In this document: one piece after another, positions 3,087 to 36,634 of the stretch
How the letters are laid out: each line of letters starts with the position of its first letter
Position numbering within the stretch: position 1 is the first letter of the stretch
Source of the DNA: Treponema sp.
GTDB taxonomy: Bacteria; Spirochaetota; Spirochaetia; Treponematales; Breznakiellaceae
NCBI GenBank assembly: GCA_031254615.1
Contig: JAIRUC010000284.1
Location: 1 to 36,879, forward strand
Reading direction: 5' to 3'
Length of the DNA: 36,879 nucleotides
The notes under the pieces: model-generated
Databases searched by the model: none
What the model was told of the DNA's origin: nothing
Seen by the model: the letters and a program-made list of their open reading frames with translations, nothing else
Position numbers and translations under genes: made by a program

Positions 3087-4697
3087 ATGAAAAAAAGAGC
3101 TCTTGTCAGTGTATTTTACAAGGACGGCATCCTTGAATTGGCTTCGTTTTTGAGCGGTTCAGGGTGGGAGATTCTTTCAACCGGAGGCACTTCAAAGTAC
3201 CTGCAGGAGAATAAAATCCCTGTTACAGACGTTTCTTCGGTTACCGGTTTTCCCGAATGTCTTGACGGGCGGGTAAAAACCCTGCACCCTGCGATTCACG
3301 CCGGTATTTTGGCGCGCAGAGATGTCCAGACTCATGTTGATACTCTGAAAAATCTGAACCTTAGCACAATAGACCTTGTCTGCTGTAACCTGTATCCCTT
3401 TTTTGAAAAAGTGCAGGAAGGTCTTTCTCTTGAGGCGACAATTGAGTTTATCGACATCGGCGGGCCTTCGATGCTTCGTTCCGCGGCAAAAAATTTCCGC
3501 GATGTAATTGTTCTTACAGACCCCGCCGATTATCCGCAGGTAGTTGAAGGCTTAAAAGCCGGAGATGTCCCTGTGGAATTTAAAAAACAGCTTGCCGGCA
3601 AAGTTTTCGATTTAACTTCCGCCTACGACGCCGCAATAGCGCGTTACATACTGGACGACGAGTATCCGCGCTATCTGCCGCTTTCACTTGAAAAAGGTCA
3701 GCACCTGCGCTACGGAGAAAACGGCCACCAGTCCGCCGCGCTCTATCTGCACACTGACAGCCACGGCGTCCTTAAAGGAATGGAGCAGTTGCACGGCAAA
3801 GAGCTTGGCTACAATAATATCAAAGACCTTGATTTAGCATGGAAAGCAGTCTGCGCCTTTGGCCTTTCTGCCGACGGAACTCTTCCGGCAGGCAGTAAAG
3901 ACGTTAACCAATTATTTTCAGAGGTTAACGACGCTGTGAAACCATGTTGTGCCGCTATAAAACACAATACTCCGTGCGGAATTGCGCTTGGAAACACACT
4001 AATTGAAGCGTACGACAAAACATTCGCCTGTGATCCTGTTTCGATCTATGGCGGCATAATCGCCTGTAACACCGTCGTTGACGCCGGTGTCGCGGCAAAA
4101 CTTGGCGAGTTGTTTTTGGAAATTGTAGCCGCCCCCGGTTTTGACGAAGACGCGCTAGAGATTCTGAAAAAGAAAAAAAATCTGCGTATTTTAAAACTGA
4201 AAAAATCTCCACAGGAAACCCATGAATATGTCGCAGTTGACGGCGGTCTTTTGGTTCAGCAAAGCGACCGTCGCCTTCTTGAAAAGTGGGATGTGGTAAC
4301 AAAAACCGCGCCTGAGACTTGCGACATCCCTGACATGATTTTCGGAATGAGGGCAGTAACCTTTGCCAAATCCAACGCAATTATGATAGTGAAAGAGCAG
4401 GCGGCGACAGGCATCGGCTGCGGGCAAGTAAACCGCATCTGGCCGACATTGCAGTCCCTGGAAAGAAGCGCGGATGTCTTAAAAGCCGAAAACCCGTGGA
4501 AGAACAGCGAGCCCGCAAGAGTTCTGGCATCCGACGCATTTTTCCCGAAGACCGACATTGTTGAAGCCGCCGCCGCCGCGGGAATCAAAGCCATTATCCA
4601 GCCCGGCGGCTCGATCAACGACAAGCTTTCAATTGAGGCCTGCGATAAGTACGGGATAGCAATGGTGTTTACAGGGACGCGGCATTTTAAACATTAA
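3087..4697 (+). CDS. purH: Bifunctional AICAR formyltransferase / IMP cyclohydrolase
   Basis: N-terminal MGS-like domain (RALVSVFYKDGILELASFL...LSTGGTSKYL...DGRVKTLHPAIHAGILARR) and transformylase region (KHNTPCGIALG...). Confidence 0.95.
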   Translation: MKKRALVSVFYKDGILELASFLSGSGWEILSTGGTSKYLQENKIPVTDVSSVTGFPECLDGRVKTLHPAIHAGILARRDVQTHVDTLKNLNLSTIDLVCCNLYPFFEKVQEGLSLEATIEFIDIGGPSMLRSAAKNFRDVIVLTDPADYPQVVEGLKAGDVPVEFKKQLAGKVFDLTSAYDAAIARYILDDEYPRYLPLSLEKGQHLRYGENGHQSAALYLHTDSHGVLKGMEQLHGKELGYNNIKDLDLAWKAVCAFGLSADGTLPAGSKDVNQLFSEVNDAVKPCCAAIKHNTPCGIALGNTLIEAYDKTFACDPVSIYGGIIACNTVVDAGVAAKLGELFLEIVAAPGFDEDALEILKKKKNLRILKLKKSPQETHEYVAVDGGLLVQQSDRRLLEKWDVVTKTAPETCDIPDMIFGMRAVTFAKSNAIMIVKEQAATGIGCGQVNRIWPTLQSLERSADVLKAENPWKNSEPARVLASDAFFPKTDIVEAAAAAGIKAIIQPGGSINDKLSIEACDKYGIAMVFTGTRHFKH

Positions 4698-4757: not shown

Positions 4758-7700
4758 TTATCTGAAATACCCCACAGCCCCCGCGAATATATCCATCTTC
4801 CTTATCCCAGGTATATTTCTAAAAAGCCCGTCGTCAAAACGCTCGTTATGCGCCATTCTGCCAAAGATGCGGCCGTCAGGCGAAGTTATGCCTTCAATCG
4901 CAAAATTGGAATTGTTCGGATTAAAGCTGATATCCTGTGAAGGACTGCCGTCGAAATCGACATATTGAGTAGCTATCTGGCCGTTAGCCGCAAGTTCTCG
5001 GATTTGCTCTTCGCCGTCGATAAAACGCCCTTCGCCGTGAGATACCGGGACAATGTATGAGGCGCCAAGTTCAAGATGAGAAAGCCACGGCGATTTATTC
5101 GATGTTACTTTTGTCCTTACAAGTGTCGACTGATGCCGTCCGATTGTATTGAAGGTTAGGGTGGGGGAGTCCTGCGTCATTGCGCGTATTTCGCCGTAAG
5201 GGACAAGCCCAAGTTTGACAAGAGCCTGAAATCCGTTACAGATACCGCATACAAGACCGTCGCGCTCACGCAAAAGTTCCATAACGGCGTCGGAAACGAC
5301 GGGATTTCTGATAAATGCCGTTATAAATTTGCCCGAACCGTCCGGCTCATCGCCGCCGGAAAATCCTCCGGGGAGAACCAGACCTTGAGCGGTGCGAATG
5401 GCTTTTTCAAAAGCACGGACGCTTTCTGCGATGTATGAGGGGGTAAGGTTGCGTATAACAAATATTTCCGCCGCTCCTCCGGCTTTTTCAATTGCTCTTG
5501 CCGTGTCGTATTCGCTGTTTGTTCCCGGAAAAACGGGAATGACAAATTTTGGTTTTGCGTAACGCTCTTTCGTTTTGATTGTTACGCCCTTGTCATAAAA
5601 GAACGCTTCTGTTTTTCCTTCCTGTTTTGTATTGTACGGATAAACCGGCTCAAGCGTTTTTTCCCATGCGTTCTGCAGTTTTTCAAGCGGAATGATAAAA
5701 GTTTTTACTTTAAGAGTGTATTCGTCCGTTGTGCGTCCCAGCAAAACGCCAATTTGCAACGGCGCGTCTGTTTCAAATATAAAGCCGCCAAAGCCGGGCT
5801 CAATTAAAAGCGGCTCTTGCGCTTCAAAACCAATCCTGTTACCAATGCACATTTTTACAACAGCCTCAAGTGTTCCTCCGCTGTCGACCGCCCACGCGGA
5901 AAGTATTTTTCGCTCGGCAATTAATTTTTCGGCAGTGTCAAAATATTCGCGTAACGCGGCAAAATCCGCTTTTTCAAAAACTGAGTACGGCGGTTTATAA
6001 AGATAAACATAACTTGCGGTGCGCTTGAATTCGGGCGTTACTATGTTGTCAATTTCTGCGGTGGAAACGGCGAATGAAACGAGCGTCGGCGGCACGTCGA
6101 TATTTTCGCCGTTTTTAAGCGAGAAGGAGCCGGACATTGAATCCTTACCGCCGATTGCCGCTATTTCCAGTCCAAGTTGAGCGTCAAGCGCGCCAAGGAG
6201 CGCAGACACGGGCTTTCCCCACCTTAAAGGAGTATTGCGTAACCTTTCAAAATATTCCTGAAACGAAAGCCAGCACCGCTTTCTGCTGGCGCCGGCGGCG
6301 ATTATTTTCGCCAGCGACAGAATAACGGCGAAAACCGCCCCGTGGTACGGGCTTGCCGACGATATTTCCGGATCGAATCCCCATGACATAAGAGAGCAGG
6401 TTTTTGTTTCGCCGTTAAGTACGGGAATTTTTGCCGCCATTGCCTGTGCCGGCGTTAGCTGATATTTCCCGCCGAAAGGAGCTATAACGGTTGCCGCTCC
6501 GATGTTTGAATCAAAACGGTCTACAAGCCCTTTTTGCGAACATATATTTAAACCGCCGATAAATTTTTCAAGTTGTTGCGCGTCAGGCTCGTTTTTTGTG
6601 AATGTAATTTGAGGGGAAGCGATATGCGCTTTCGCTTGCTTTTTCGCTCCGTTGCTGTTAAGAAATTCCCTTGAAAGGTTTACGATTATTTTCCCGTTCC
6701 AACTCATTACAAGACGTTTTTCACGCGTGACTTCGGCTATTACAACAGCTTCAAGATTTTCCGCAGACGCAAGCTCAATAAAAGTTTTTGCGTCTTTTTC
6801 AGATGTTACTACGGACATCCGCTCCTGACTTTCGCTGATCGCGAGTTCCGTGCCGTCAAGACCTTCGTATTTTTTTGTTACTTTATCAAGGTTGATTAAA
6901 AGACCGTCCGCGAGTTCTCCCACGGAAACGCTGACCCCGCCCGCGCCGAAATCATTACAGCGTTTTATCAGGCGCGTCGCCTGTGGGTTGCGGAAGAGCC
7001 TTTGAAGTTTCCGCTCTTCCGGCGCGTTGCCTTTTTGAACATCAGCGCCGCAGGTTTCAAGAGAGCTGGAAGTGTGCGACTTTGAAGAGCCGGTCGCCCC
7101 TCCGATCCCGTCGCGCCCGGTACGTCCGCCAAGAAGTATAACAACGTCTCCCGGTTCGGGAGTTTTGCGTATAACATTTTCGGCAGGGGCGGCTCCTATT
7201 ACCGCTCCGATTTCCATGCGTTTCGCCGCATAGCCCGGGTGGTAAATTTCGTGGACGTGCCCTGTCGCAAGCCCTATCTGATTGCCGTAAGAGCTGTAAC
7301 CTGCCGCCGCGGTACGGCAAATCTTGCGCTGGGGCAGTTTGCCATCAAGAGCGCCGGATGCGCCCTGAAGCGGATCCGCCGCGCCCGTTACGCGCATAGC
7401 CTGATAAACAAATGCGCGTCCTGAAAGCGGGTCGCGTATCGCCCCTCCAAGACAGGTAGCCGCTCCGCCGAACGGTTCAATTTCGGTAGGGTGATTGTGC
7501 GTTTCATTTTTGAACATCAAAAGCCAGTCTTGCGGCTCTCCGTCTACATCCACTTTTATCTTTACGGAACAGGCGTTAATTTCCTCGGATTCGTCCAAAT
7601 CCGGCAATAATCCGCGTTGTTTTAACGCTTTTGCGCCTATTGTCGCGATATCCATCAATGTTACGGGCTTGCCGCTTCGGCCAAGGGACGCCCTTACTTC

Positions 7701-17600: not shown

Positions 17601-19137
17601 TGCAGGTCTTTCCAGCCCCTTCCCGATACGAAGTACTGTTGTCGGAATTTATAAAGACGGTATTATCAATGCCCACTGCGGCGACTTATATATAGATTTA
17701 TCCGCGTTATGGGATTTAACGGGAGATTCGCCCGACTTTGCAATCGCCGGAGGATATGTTACGGGAAAAGTTGATATTCGAGGGTCCATTCTGGAGCCGG
17801 AATTTTTTGGAACCGCAAGAGGAACAAGTATCCGCTTTCTTGTGCCGGAATACATCAGCCATGATATAAAAGCTGTTCCTTTTGACGCTGTCCTTGAAGG
17901 AAATGAATTGGTTTTTGACCGTGTACCGGTTACAGTTGGAAGCGGCGGCGGGACAGTAAGCGGCTGGCTTCGTTTTGAAAACTGGGTTCCGGAAAATGTC
18001 GGTCTGGAAATTACTGTTCCAAGAAGCACGCCGATACCGTATATGTTTAACATAACAGGTTTTCTTGCAGATGGGGATGTTTCCGGAAAACTTAATATAA
18101 TCCGCGAAAACGAAATGATGGAAGTGTCAGGTGATCTTTTTGCAAATAATACCGAAATGGGTCTTATATTTGATGAAGTCAGACAAGACCGTTATAACAC
18201 AGAGAAAAAAATCCCCACTGTTGTAGAGTTGACTGTTACAACCGGGCCTGTGGTAGAATTTATCTGGCCAAATAAAAGCGCTCCCATTTTAAGGGCAACC
18301 CCGGAAATAGGGACCGTAGTTATGGTTTTTGCCGACACAATGACCGGACAATATACACTTAACAGTGATATAACGATTCGTTCCGGTGAGTTGTACTATT
18401 TTGACCGCAGTTTTTATATTCGGCAGGGAAATCTGGTTTTCAGGGAGAATGATCAGCAATTTGACCCGCGTATAAGCGCGCGAGCCGAAATTCGGGAACG
18501 CACAGATTCAGGACCTGTAACTATTTCGATGGTTATAGAAAATCAACCGCTTTTAACTTTTATTCCCCGTTTTGAGGCAAGCCCCTCACTTACACAACTG
18601 GAGATTTATTCGCTTTTAGGCCATAATATGTATGCTATGAGCGGAGACGAAAGCGGCGATACGGCAACGCGTGTTCTTTTGAGCTCCGGTACGGACATTT
18701 TATCCCAATATCTTTTAAGCGATGATTTATTGGGACAAATTGTCAATGTACGGCAATTTGAGCGTACGGTAAGAAATCTGCTGTATTTGGATATGTTCAG
18801 TGTCAGGACAAAGTTTGCTCAAAATTTTGTAGTTTCAAACGCATCCAGCTTTGGGCAGGACCCTGTTGACAGAAACAGCCGTGTAGGTAACTATTTTGAT
18901 AACACAAGTGTTTATTTAGGTAAATATATAGGTCAGGATTTGTTTATTCAGGGCATGATTACCGCGCGCTATGATGAAAACAGACTAACTATGGGTGGAT
19001 TAAGGATTGAGCCGGATATTGGTATAGAGTTTAATACTCCGTTATTTAATATACGCTGGGATTTCATTCCATCAAGCCCGGAAAACTGGTGGGTTAACGA
19101 TAATTCTATTACTCTGATATGGAGTAGGTCATTTTAG
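14695..19137 (+). CDS. tamB: TamB-like (DUF490) translocation and assembly module protein
   Basis: N-terminal TM anchor, long beta-repeat body, characteristic C-terminal TamB region (YTLNSDITIRSGELYYFDRSFYIRQGNLVFRENDQQFDPRISARAEIRERTDSGPVTISMVIENQPL). Directly upstream of bamA. TTG start is uncertain. Confidence 0.85.
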   Translation: MLKTQTRVIYIKILVFTGLIAVSVLAVRPVHSALTAAMSHIRTNFIEKIESLTGIEIRYSSIRPTFFGSFDVRNLSLIKNEKPFLSVSRVRISFSLPELLKGNKAAFHSIQLEHPSITLDLQEDKDTFEFLSSLMNDEKKSNKEVLEQIAQFFPGKTDLQIRNCFVGLTDSARKYQIQNMDIDITGDGVQLLFNGKLNAEFIYTDLLSKTFSINGEIGMNGVCSVNLDEGSANLFISSISGSEQEAGKQKASFFKPFADENLSTKEYFNVQPLNFILDFKDGILNLNTGGDTSGENMSFSGFIYYNTGTNSITTEMNFDDFLLADFVTFSHPRGDINRIFFTPVTGDASFYSDGSAMRYWADFHDSNSSDNSFVVKIHGNDKYITFDKLRLFSPYNKKSDSFFSGELDVTGRIGFSPLTSSGTISFNKFSFGTDEFINAVFTVSTQKNEIQITSENIAAGQLVLNNFGIYLIPTDRDLGIVVSITGKEEKTVDVFAALNYSPRHLEVSTTIDSFSVMDLMQAAQPFSKAVKNPPVGKNYLVNSSISAEIFLTTDFNQVVYNVPNMVFETQDVTGRFSFSGTDRIFTLSESVITRDETELVVSAQYNFANPVEIGFLLAAKYQDLSWNVEGQILDKTTLIIRDAGGLYVYGSRSGSGGVSGYMEGVDFPFLVDNKTIYLNFYLTLRYTSNDFWYVDVAHFNARDYNSLQGIEFISVSGAVDNDGASFRNLLLRDNIGELAGSVDFAWDTDFSYLQFLVNLTDGREKGENYSAEGIVKKNHFNILASVSDMRLDRLLGKSKGGREILLSGSAEVLGDSINSFTAKCDLESLYIKNSALKASASVVFTNDELTATDIKFDYNDVNVVMPLLQLNRIESYAMAKGDIQGVVFKKWLESSFELNANFINIDSWLEIKQALASIDGSFKADKIQYRYEDYDSFSFVFASNDGAVSVSGGPKNMLRLEMDTGGNFFAGLSSPFPIRSTVVGIYKDGIINAHCGDLYIDLSALWDLTGDSPDFAIAGGYVTGKVDIRGSILEPEFFGTARGTSIRFLVPEYISHDIKAVPFDAVLEGNELVFDRVPVTVGSGGGTVSGWLRFENWVPENVGLEITVPRSTPIPYMFNITGFLADGDVSGKLNIIRENEMMEVSGDLFANNTEMGLIFDEVRQDRYNTEKKIPTVVELTVTTGPVVEFIWPNKSAPILRATPEIGTVVMVFADTMTGQYTLNSDITIRSGELYYFDRSFYIRQGNLVFRENDQQFDPRISARAEIRERTDSGPVTISMVIENQPLLTFIPRFEASPSLTQLEIYSLLGHNMYAMSGDESGDTATRVLLSSGTDILSQYLLSDDLLGQIVNVRQFERTVRNLLYLDMFSVRTKFAQNFVVSNASSFGQDPVDRNSRVGNYFDNTSVYLGKYIGQDLFIQGMITARYDENRLTMGGLRIEPDIGIEFNTPLFNIRWDFIPSSPENWWVNDNSITLIWSRSF

Positions 19138-34993: not shown

Positions 34994-36097
34994 ATGAAAC
35001 TAGACCCTTTATTAAGCAAAGCTGCCCGTCTTGCAAGATCAAAAAATTATGAAGGTGCGCTAAAAATATTAAAAGACGAAGAAGACCGCTATTATGGATC
35101 GTTCAAATATTATTATCTATACGGTGTAATATGCCTTTATTCGGGCGCTTTTGTAGACGCTTTGAACAGTTTTCGCCAGGCGCGTAACATAAAGATGAAA
35201 GACCCGAATACAATGCTTGGTCTTGCCTTCCTTTATCTAAAACGCATGAATACTGTTCAGGCGGTGGATTATTATCTTGATGTTCAGGAGATAGACCCAA
35301 AAAATAAAATTGCAACAAAAGCGCTGTCCGTTATCCGCAAATATTCAGACCCGGAAGCGTTATCCGAATGGCTGACTCCCGAAAGAATAGTCAAATTATT
35401 TCCGCCGATTCCTTTTCCGGGAATAAGCGTAAAAACGGTTATTTCTTCGGCAGTAATTCTCGCGGTGCTTATTGCTTTATTTTTCGGCATATCTTCAAAA
35501 ATCCGTTCAATGCCGTCTCCGCGGCCTTCCGCTCAATTTACCCTTTCCGCTCAGGAAAGGAACGCGCCTGTTGAAACTGGCGGCTCATACAAGTACATTC
35601 TTACGCAGAAACAGGTGACAGATGAATACGACAGGGCTCATTCTTTATTTAGAGCGCACCGGGATGAAGCCGCGAAAATTCACCTTAACCGTATTTTAGA
35701 ATCCAACGCGCCCAAAATTGTTATAAACAATGCCCGCCAGATGATGTTATCCACGGATGTCCCCGGCTTTGACAGTTTTAAACAGAGCGACAATCCGTCT
35801 TATTCGGATGTGCAAAGCGAGCCTGCTCTTTACAGGGACGTTCATGTAATCTGGAGAGGCATGGCGACTAACCTTGAAGTTACGGACGAAGCTGTCTGTT
35901 TTGATTTTCTTGTCGGCTACGACACCCGCAGAACCCTCGAAGGCATAGTCCCCGTTGTATTTAAGACGCCGGTTTCAGTTAACACAGAACGCCCGCTTGA
36001 AGTGCTGGGAAAAATCAATCTGTCAGGCGCAAACATGAGCGTAACGCTGGAAGGCGTGGCGATACATCAATCGGGAAGGCTGAACAGTGAACAGTGA
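34994..36097 (+). CDS. TPR protein with a single TM helix and C-terminal domain
   Basis: N-terminal TPR repeats; TM VKTVISSAVILAVLIALFFGI; the C-terminus NSEQ-stop is encoded within the palindromic element. Confidence 0.75.
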   Translation: MKLDPLLSKAARLARSKNYEGALKILKDEEDRYYGSFKYYYLYGVICLYSGAFVDALNSFRQARNIKMKDPNTMLGLAFLYLKRMNTVQAVDYYLDVQEIDPKNKIATKALSVIRKYSDPEALSEWLTPERIVKLFPPIPFPGISVKTVISSAVILAVLIALFFGISSKIRSMPSPRPSAQFTLSAQERNAPVETGGSYKYILTQKQVTDEYDRAHSLFRAHRDEAAKIHLNRILESNAPKIVINNARQMMLSTDVPGFDSFKQSDNPSYSDVQSEPALYRDVHVIWRGMATNLEVTDEAVCFDFLVGYDTRRTLEGIVPVVFKTPVSVNTERPLEVLGKINLSGANMSVTLEGVAIHQSGRLNSEQ

Positions 36098-36189
36098 ACA
36101 GTTAACAGTGTCGCTGTCCGTGAGCGCAGAGTGATGGTATACATTGCGCCTGCAGACGACAACACTGTTAACTGTTCACTGTTCACTGT
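36084..36189. repeat. 106-bp palindromic element: 28-bp perfect inverted arms of ACAGTGA-type heptamers, 50-nt centre
   Basis: Left arm 36084-36111 ACAGTGAACAGTGAACAGTTAACAGTGT; right arm 36162-36189 is its exact reverse complement; nested GCGCA (36124-36128) / TGCGC (36145-36149). Confidence 0.9.
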
Positions 36190-36634
36190 CTAATATAATT
36201 GTTACAGGTCCGTCATTCGTATAGCTGACTTTCATTTCTGTTTGGAATTCTCCGGTTTCGCAGATTAAGCCTTGTTCGCGTATTTTTTTGATAAAGTATA
36301 AGTAAATAGTTTTTGCCTTTTCAGGCGGGGCGGCTCCGTTCCATGATGGTCTGCGTCCCTTTCTGGCATCCGCAAGGAGGGTAAATTGAGAGACGGCAAG
36401 AACGCCGGCATCCGGATTATTTGCGGCTATGTCTTTTAGGGACAGATTCATTGTGCCGTTATCATCGTCAAAGATACGTAAATTTGTGATTTTTTCCGCA
36501 AGCCAGTCCGCGTCGGATTCGCTGTCGTTATGCGCTACGCCAAGATAAACCAGAAGCCCGGATTTTATACTGCCTTTGACAATATTATTAACTGTCACCG
36601 AAGCGCCGGTTACACGCTGAATCACAGTTTTCAT
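36176..36634 (-). CDS. dtd: D-aminoacyl-tRNA deacylase
   Basis: MKTVIQRVTGASVTV, AVSQFTLLADARKGRRPSW, TNDGPVTIIL signature. Confidence 0.95.
   Translation of the reverse strand: MKTVIQRVTGASVTVNNIVKGSIKSGLLVYLGVAHNDSESDADWLAEKITNLRIFDDDNGTMNLSLKDIAANNPDAGVLAVSQFTLLADARKGRRPSWNGAAPPEKAKTIYLYFIKKIREQGLICETGEFQTEMKVSYTNDGPVTIILDSEQ

Follow-up and report, generated by a model that had tools for sequence, protein, structure and literature searches.

Arrays of heptamers have been noted for years in scattered bacteria, with no explanation of the 7-nt unit or of its spread. MacGregor (2015) described direct repeats of TAACTGA in Beggiatoaceae, Cyanobacteria and Bacteroidetes; the study noted that these carry stops in every frame of one direction and overlap the ends of genes, and it found no mechanism (PMC4679880). 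A 2015 study of Xanthomonas and Nostoc reported heptamers of sequence GGGAATC, with 70 and 75 convergent inverted pairs in two Xanthomonas species and a bias of the inverted pairs towards the neighbourhood of stop codons (PMC4692102). Both heptamer arrays and inverted pairs near stops are on record from other bacteria.

Here we compare with these systems a heptamer-built element lying between two convergent genes of a Treponema sp. The window (the whole stretch of DNA analysed, 36,879 nt) is contig 14 of a 2.59 Mb genome assembly comprising 315 contigs and 78% complete, referred to below as the host genome.

Anatomy of the window element

The original prediction described two mirrored arms 50 nt apart, a nested central stem, and stop codons in two frames from either side. 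All of these were borne out in the window, at the following positions:

34994 to 36097, plus strand: TPR gene, ending ...RLNSEQ*, the NSEQ codons and TGA lying wholly or partly in the left arm
36084 to 36111, plus strand: left arm, four heptamers (ACAGTGA/ACAGTGA/ACAGTTA/ACAGTGT), reading inward
36104 to 36169, minus strand: match to the core query (88% identity), covering the dispersed core and the innermost heptamers
36124 to 36149, no strand: nested stem at the centre of the core (GCGCA at 36124-36128, TGCGC at 36145-36149)
36162 to 36189, minus strand: right arm, exact 28-bp reverse complement of the left arm, reading inward
36176 to 36634, minus strand: dtd, D-Tyr-tRNA deacylase (PF02580), ending ...ILDSEQ*, the last codons and TGA lying in the right arm

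The whole unit measures 106 bp, with 50 nt between the 28-bp arms. Read inward, the window arm carries stops in two of the three frames (TGA at position 5, TGA at 12 and TAA at 20). The heptamer pattern was matched 7 times in the window against 0.42 expected, and the RNA fold of the element was calculated at -65.8 kcal/mol, compared with -31.9 +/- 3.4 in shuffles (z -10). The element had no Rfam match at the gathering score, and no target-site duplication was visible by eye at this one locus. Elsewhere in the window, a lone heptamer pair (ACACTTA ACAGTGA, 18355-18368) lies one mismatch from the pattern and is probably a chance occurrence or a remnant.

The exact mirroring of the arms is peculiar to the window copy (1 of 30 paired arrays) and is no property of the family. 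Based on pooled unit frequencies, two independent arms are expected to agree at a given unit in ~8% of cases, so that an exact mirror is unusual as a chance event. It is possible that recent hairpin-templated correction of this copy produced it.

Copy number and dispersal

The host genome was searched with ACAGTGAACAGTTAACAGTG, allowing up to 3 mismatches. This returned 210 matches, while the reversed control returned 0; the element is multicopy, and the uniqueness that had been named as grounds for refuting the original prediction is ruled out. A stricter 21-nt pattern was matched 127 times in the host genome compared with 0-17 times in each of 36 same-genus genomes, indicating that the expansion of heptamer elements is lineage-specific. 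Further analysis used the window and 38 contig pieces (368 kb in total), which yielded 57 clusters while shuffled sequence yielded none. The statistics given for the family below rest on the window and these pieces, which were picked for containing heptamer hits, and the E-values and permutation tests count related copies as independent.

The TPR and dtd genes are also convergent in three same-genus genomes that lack the element, with gaps of 1 (L092), 31 (L087) and 10 nt (L097) between them. The element is not fixed at this locus, and the other ground named for refutation, base-by-base conservation of the site in distant species, does not apply either. The host genome is a MAG of 315 contigs, which might raise the suspicion of an assembly artefact or of chance; this explanation is refuted, since dozens of differing copies lie within contigs in different flanking sequence, and since the same inward rule recurs in other phyla, in isolates as well as closed genomes (see below).

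Paired arrays point inward and meet gene ends

Array pairs up to 200 nt apart were without exception directed towards one another (30 inward, 0 outward, in the 38 pieces and the window). Paired elements were found between convergent genes in 10 of 23 cases, compared with 43 among 272 pairs of neighbouring genes (p = 0.003); a preference for convergent gene ends was one of the points that had been proposed for checking. Inward pairing was also observed between tandem and divergent genes. When a gene 3' end faced an inward arm, it lay inside the arm in 26 cases and within 10 nt of it in 12, or 38 of 41 in all; for gene 5' ends facing an inward arm, the median distance was 51 nt.

Gene calling relied on a simple longest-ORF method, under which a gene interrupted by an insertion would likewise show up as a gene end within an arm. 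We compared the C-termini of selected genes with those of relatives. The TPR protein ends RLNSEQ* in the window, and RLETN*, RLEN* and RLE* in the same-genus relatives without the element (L092, L087 and L097, respectively). Similarly, dtd ends LDSEQ* in the window, and LDSKD*, LDTKE and similar in relatives. At a second element (L039), the gene on the left ends FEDV*, as it does in G024 and G036, and at a third (L061) the gene on the right ends LLKQ* compared with LLK* in relatives. At the tested genes, the element thus starts at most a few codons from the native stop and supplies a new one. For the genes compared with relatives, these alignments show that the predicted ends inside arms are not due to insertion within the gene.

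The TPR gene and dtd do stop at the same TGA (arm positions 12-14), as originally described; this coincidence needs only that both genes enter their arms in the same one of three frames. The elements also create false C-terminal similarity (NSEQ*, VNS*) among unrelated proteins. The G013 orthologue of the L061 gene (L293) ends LLKSANSL*, followed by decayed heptamer-like sequence (GCAATTA..., TTCACTG...), and that locus may once, or in another species, have carried an element.

The position of the arms on stop codons, the very stable fold of the window element and the enrichment between convergent genes (p = 0.003 here, p = 0.01 in other phyla) would suit elements selected as 3'-end devices, namely bidirectional hairpins that block read-through or protect mRNA 3' ends, with arms guaranteeing stops to genes that enter from either side. 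However, there is no T-run or terminator-like site, the inward orientation of paired arms extends to tandem and divergent genes, and the element is missing from the same gene pair in relatives. Furthermore, the GGGAATC pairs of Xanthomonas likewise lie near stops (PMC4692102), and yet this unit, as read off directly, contains no stop in any frame; stop supply is therefore not the general reason. It accounts for the tolerance of such elements at gene ends but leaves the orientation rule unexplained, and stop-codon selection was rejected as the general cause of orientation given the inward pairs between divergent and tandem genes and the stop-free Xanthomonas unit. A bidirectional terminator in the ordinary sense, as had been offered in the original prediction, was likewise rejected as there is no compact GC-rich stem followed by a T-run. 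We regard selected 3'-end devices as an unlikely explanation, while from the sequence some role for the elements at 3' ends is conceivable.

A dispersed core between the arrays

When the 100 nt adjoining each array were compared across the genome, 35 of 81 arrays had an inner flank resembling that of another array at a different place (68 pairs). The corresponding figure for the outer 100 nt was 3 of 81 (2 pairs). An inner flank that is repeated and an outer flank that almost never is indicate that the arrays cap a dispersed core of ~57 bp. This core is imperfectly palindromic, is close to TGTTGTTGTTTGYAGGCGCAGTGTATTACCATCACGATGCGCTCACGGACAGCGACA, and was matched 14 times in the host genome, with copies at unrelated loci. 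Searching with an internal core motif, independently of the arms, retrieved 19 copies, nearly all of which were judged by eye to have flanks of 7-nt period; some were flanked by other units (GGGAGTA, GTAGTTA, GCAGGGA). Many arrays stand alone, with no core recognised beside them.

In relatives, the internal core motif (2-3 mismatches) was about as frequent as its reversed control, and the core itself gave only weak matches, in G008, G024 and G027. The core end in G027 has units of the GGGGATA type on both sides. Within the host genome, two elements ~2 kb apart (L054:8847-9005 and L054:10795-10936) have a near-identical core with arms of different length and units, and the core of the L059 element (4876-5007) is partly the same as theirs.

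Arm units and their turnover

The main units in the host genome are ACAGTTA, ACAGTGA, ATAGTTA, GCAATGA, ATAGTGA and GCAATTA, none of which is of the G-rich, quadruplex-forming kind. Heptamer number varies among copies, with 4 or 5 units per array commonest. Unit by unit, the two arms of one element were no more alike (identity 0.710) than different or shuffled arms (0.721 +/- 0.015). Fold-back copying of one arm from the other was accordingly rejected as a general process, since the arms are not mirrored unit by unit. In 4-mer content the arms of one element were more alike (0.427) than arms of different elements (0.326 +/- 0.038), the higher value being reached in 30 of 5000 shuffles.

Neighbouring units differ at position 6 beyond chance (z -3.2 at lag 1, z +2.8 at lag 2). 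This alternation suggests change in 14-nt steps, or the loss of identical neighbours. The pattern bears on the idea that the arrays are simple-sequence repeats that polymerase slippage generated at the site itself, starting from heptamer-like seeds at stops and with no transposition. Varying unit number would be expected of slippage, similar arrays in many phyla suggest easy independent origin, and in an element-free relative (L092) dtd ends with GACAGCGAA, a possible seed. Yet slippage by single units predicts like neighbours, the reverse of what is seen at position 6, and was rejected as the sole process on that account. Slippage also sits poorly with an inner flank that is a dispersed repeat beside an outer flank that is not, and leaves the always-inward pairs unexplained. 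We consider origin in place by slippage improbable.

Candidate mobilizers

The palindromic, intergenic and multicopy nature of the element, together with the Y1_Tnp proteins encoded by several same-genus genomes, invites comparison with REP/REPIN elements moved by a RAYT (TnpA-REP, a Y1 transposase). No Y1 transposase was found in the host genome (78% complete, 315 contigs), and in relatives the surroundings of the RAYT-like genes contain no heptamer palindromes; two of these genes lie near a GGGGACAGAGC palindrome instead. We therefore view RAYT-driven movement as very unlikely, and membership of a REP/RAYT system was not supported. The RAYT-like genes of G024 and G006 lie near GGGGACAGAGC / GCTCTGTCCCC palindromes (L121:2829-2874; L122:551-625 and 3091-3253), probably a REP of their own.

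Five DDE_Tnp_1 loci and one reverse transcriptase locus of the same genome (78% complete) contained neither the core end nor heptamers, and a connection with the reverse transcriptase or the IS transposases of the genome was rejected, no linkage being seen at the loci examined. An integron attC reading was dropped because the core seems to lack the end motifs expected of such sites. Separately, a putative diversity-generating retroelement was observed at L314:1231-3532 (G000:C221), with a 337-aa reverse transcriptase adjoining a 199-aa HRDC-like protein, and a formylglycine-generating-sulfatase-like protein ending RGGSW...GFRLVRP.

Inward pairs and repeated inner flanks in other phyla

A scan of one genome per species with four exact units returned at least 120 stretches. 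The matches listed include Cyanobacteria, Bacteroidetes, Gammaproteobacteria, Chloroflexi, Acidobacteria, Clostridia, Spirochaetes, Nitrospirae, Planctomycetes and others. Among these matches, 31 array pairs point inward and 0 outward, and 8 of 19 paired elements lie between convergent genes compared with 69 of 414 gene pairs (p = 0.01). Flanks repeated within a taxon (ten taxa examined, among the matches listed) were found on the inner side of 17 arrays and the outer side of 2. The inner sequence common to Alcanivorax arrays is unlike that of the host genome. In an Oscillospiraceae MAG, inner sequences appeared alike by eye but went unscored by BLAST.

Kamptonema sp. UHCC 0994 (L199) has single arrays between consecutive genes of an apparent ribosomal protein operon. 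Some arrays in this genome end directly at a start codon. As the simplest common rule, an array points from the edge of a gene or element into intergenic space.

A model for the element

We consider it probable that the 106-bp unit is a copy of a lineage-specific, non-autonomous dispersed palindromic repeat of MITE/REPIN-like character, the mechanistic steps set out below being included in that judgement. Multicopy dispersal, empty loci in relatives, a core common to unrelated loci, inward orientation, variable arms and arms lying on stops are all observed. In its broad form, the original prediction of a dispersed REP/MITE-like repeat at gene ends was thus supported by multiplicity, the empty locus in relatives, convergent enrichment and varying heptamer number. 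We infer dispersal from the distribution of copies and the empty loci, rather than from mobility seen directly.

As modelled, a core of ~57 bp capped on both sides by inward 7-nt arrays (mainly AYAGTKA, also GCAATKA and others) would be spread to further sites by a trans-acting machinery. The arms would change fast by gain or loss of units, in steps of 7 and 14 nt, and either with time or at insertion would fill the space up to the functional limits of neighbouring genes. At a 3' end this limit would be the stop codon, for which the arm would substitute its own TGA or TAA; at a 5' end it would lie ~50 nt upstream of the start. At the window locus, the element would have filled the TPR-dtd gap at the cost of a few C-terminal codons per gene, leaving both proteins essentially full length, and the TPR and dtd transcripts would both gain a long 3' hairpin.

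More tentatively, a so far undescribed process common to many phyla may build inward 7-nt caps at the borders of small dispersed cores, with the core varying from species to species. Unit type tends to match within an element and to differ between elements; on the same reading, each core would have its caps built or rebuilt around it, rather than passing them on as a constant terminal repeat. We hold this to be possible but doubtful. The rules observed here (inward orientation, core-capping, position on stop codons and a unit type common to both arms) hold in the host genome and, in part, across phyla, and they allow heptamer arrays to be tested as a repeat, mobile or self-expanding, by which gene ends are rewritten.

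Comparison with known systems

Like MITEs, the elements are short, non-coding, multicopy and bounded by terminal inverted repeats, and they have occupied and empty sites, L087, L092 and L097 lacking the element between the same convergent genes. No parent transposon was found at the loci examined and no target-site duplication was visible at the window locus; unlike the conserved terminal inverted repeat of MITEs, the arms are mutable 7-nt arrays. A MITE/REPIN-like reading also has to accommodate the arrays published for Cyanobacteria and Beggiatoaceae, most of which are single direct repeats. REP/REPIN elements with a RAYT are likewise intergenic, multicopy, non-autonomous palindromes; here no RAYT link was found in the genomes searched, and the RAYTs of relatives go with another palindrome.

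In the open-access papers searched, we found no description of a dispersed core, of a unit type common to both arms or of a cross-phylum inward rule. What is new here is the setting, which looks spirochaete-like by gene content, the core, the changeable arm units and the inward rule across phyla, although priority is uncertain.

As tandem 7-nt units dispersed in intergenic space, the arrays belong with the interspersed heptamer arrays of the TAACTGA/ACAGTKA type. The TAACTGA repeats have a near-identical unit on the other strand (TCAGTTA, compared with ACAGTTA), likewise carry stops in every frame of one direction, are patchy across phyla and have no known mechanism (PMC4679880). They differ in that nearly all are single direct arrays, with 1 inverted case among 170 in the main genome, and in lying mostly just upstream of start codons; a core is not mentioned in the sections of that report drawn on.

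Close convergent arrays near stops (30:0 for orientation; 38 of 41 for 3' ends) also place the elements with the inverted heptamer pairs of Xanthomonas. In Xanthomonas (PMC4692102) the unit is G-rich and quadruplex-forming, whereas here it is AYAGTKA; 83% of arrays occupy the same place in two species, whereas here the tested locus differs between species; and the dispersed core present here is not mentioned for GGGAATC in the sections of that report drawn on. In both systems, however, heptamer arrays of variable length form many convergent inverted pairs, occupy intergenic space near or overlapping stops, and have no association with known mobile elements.
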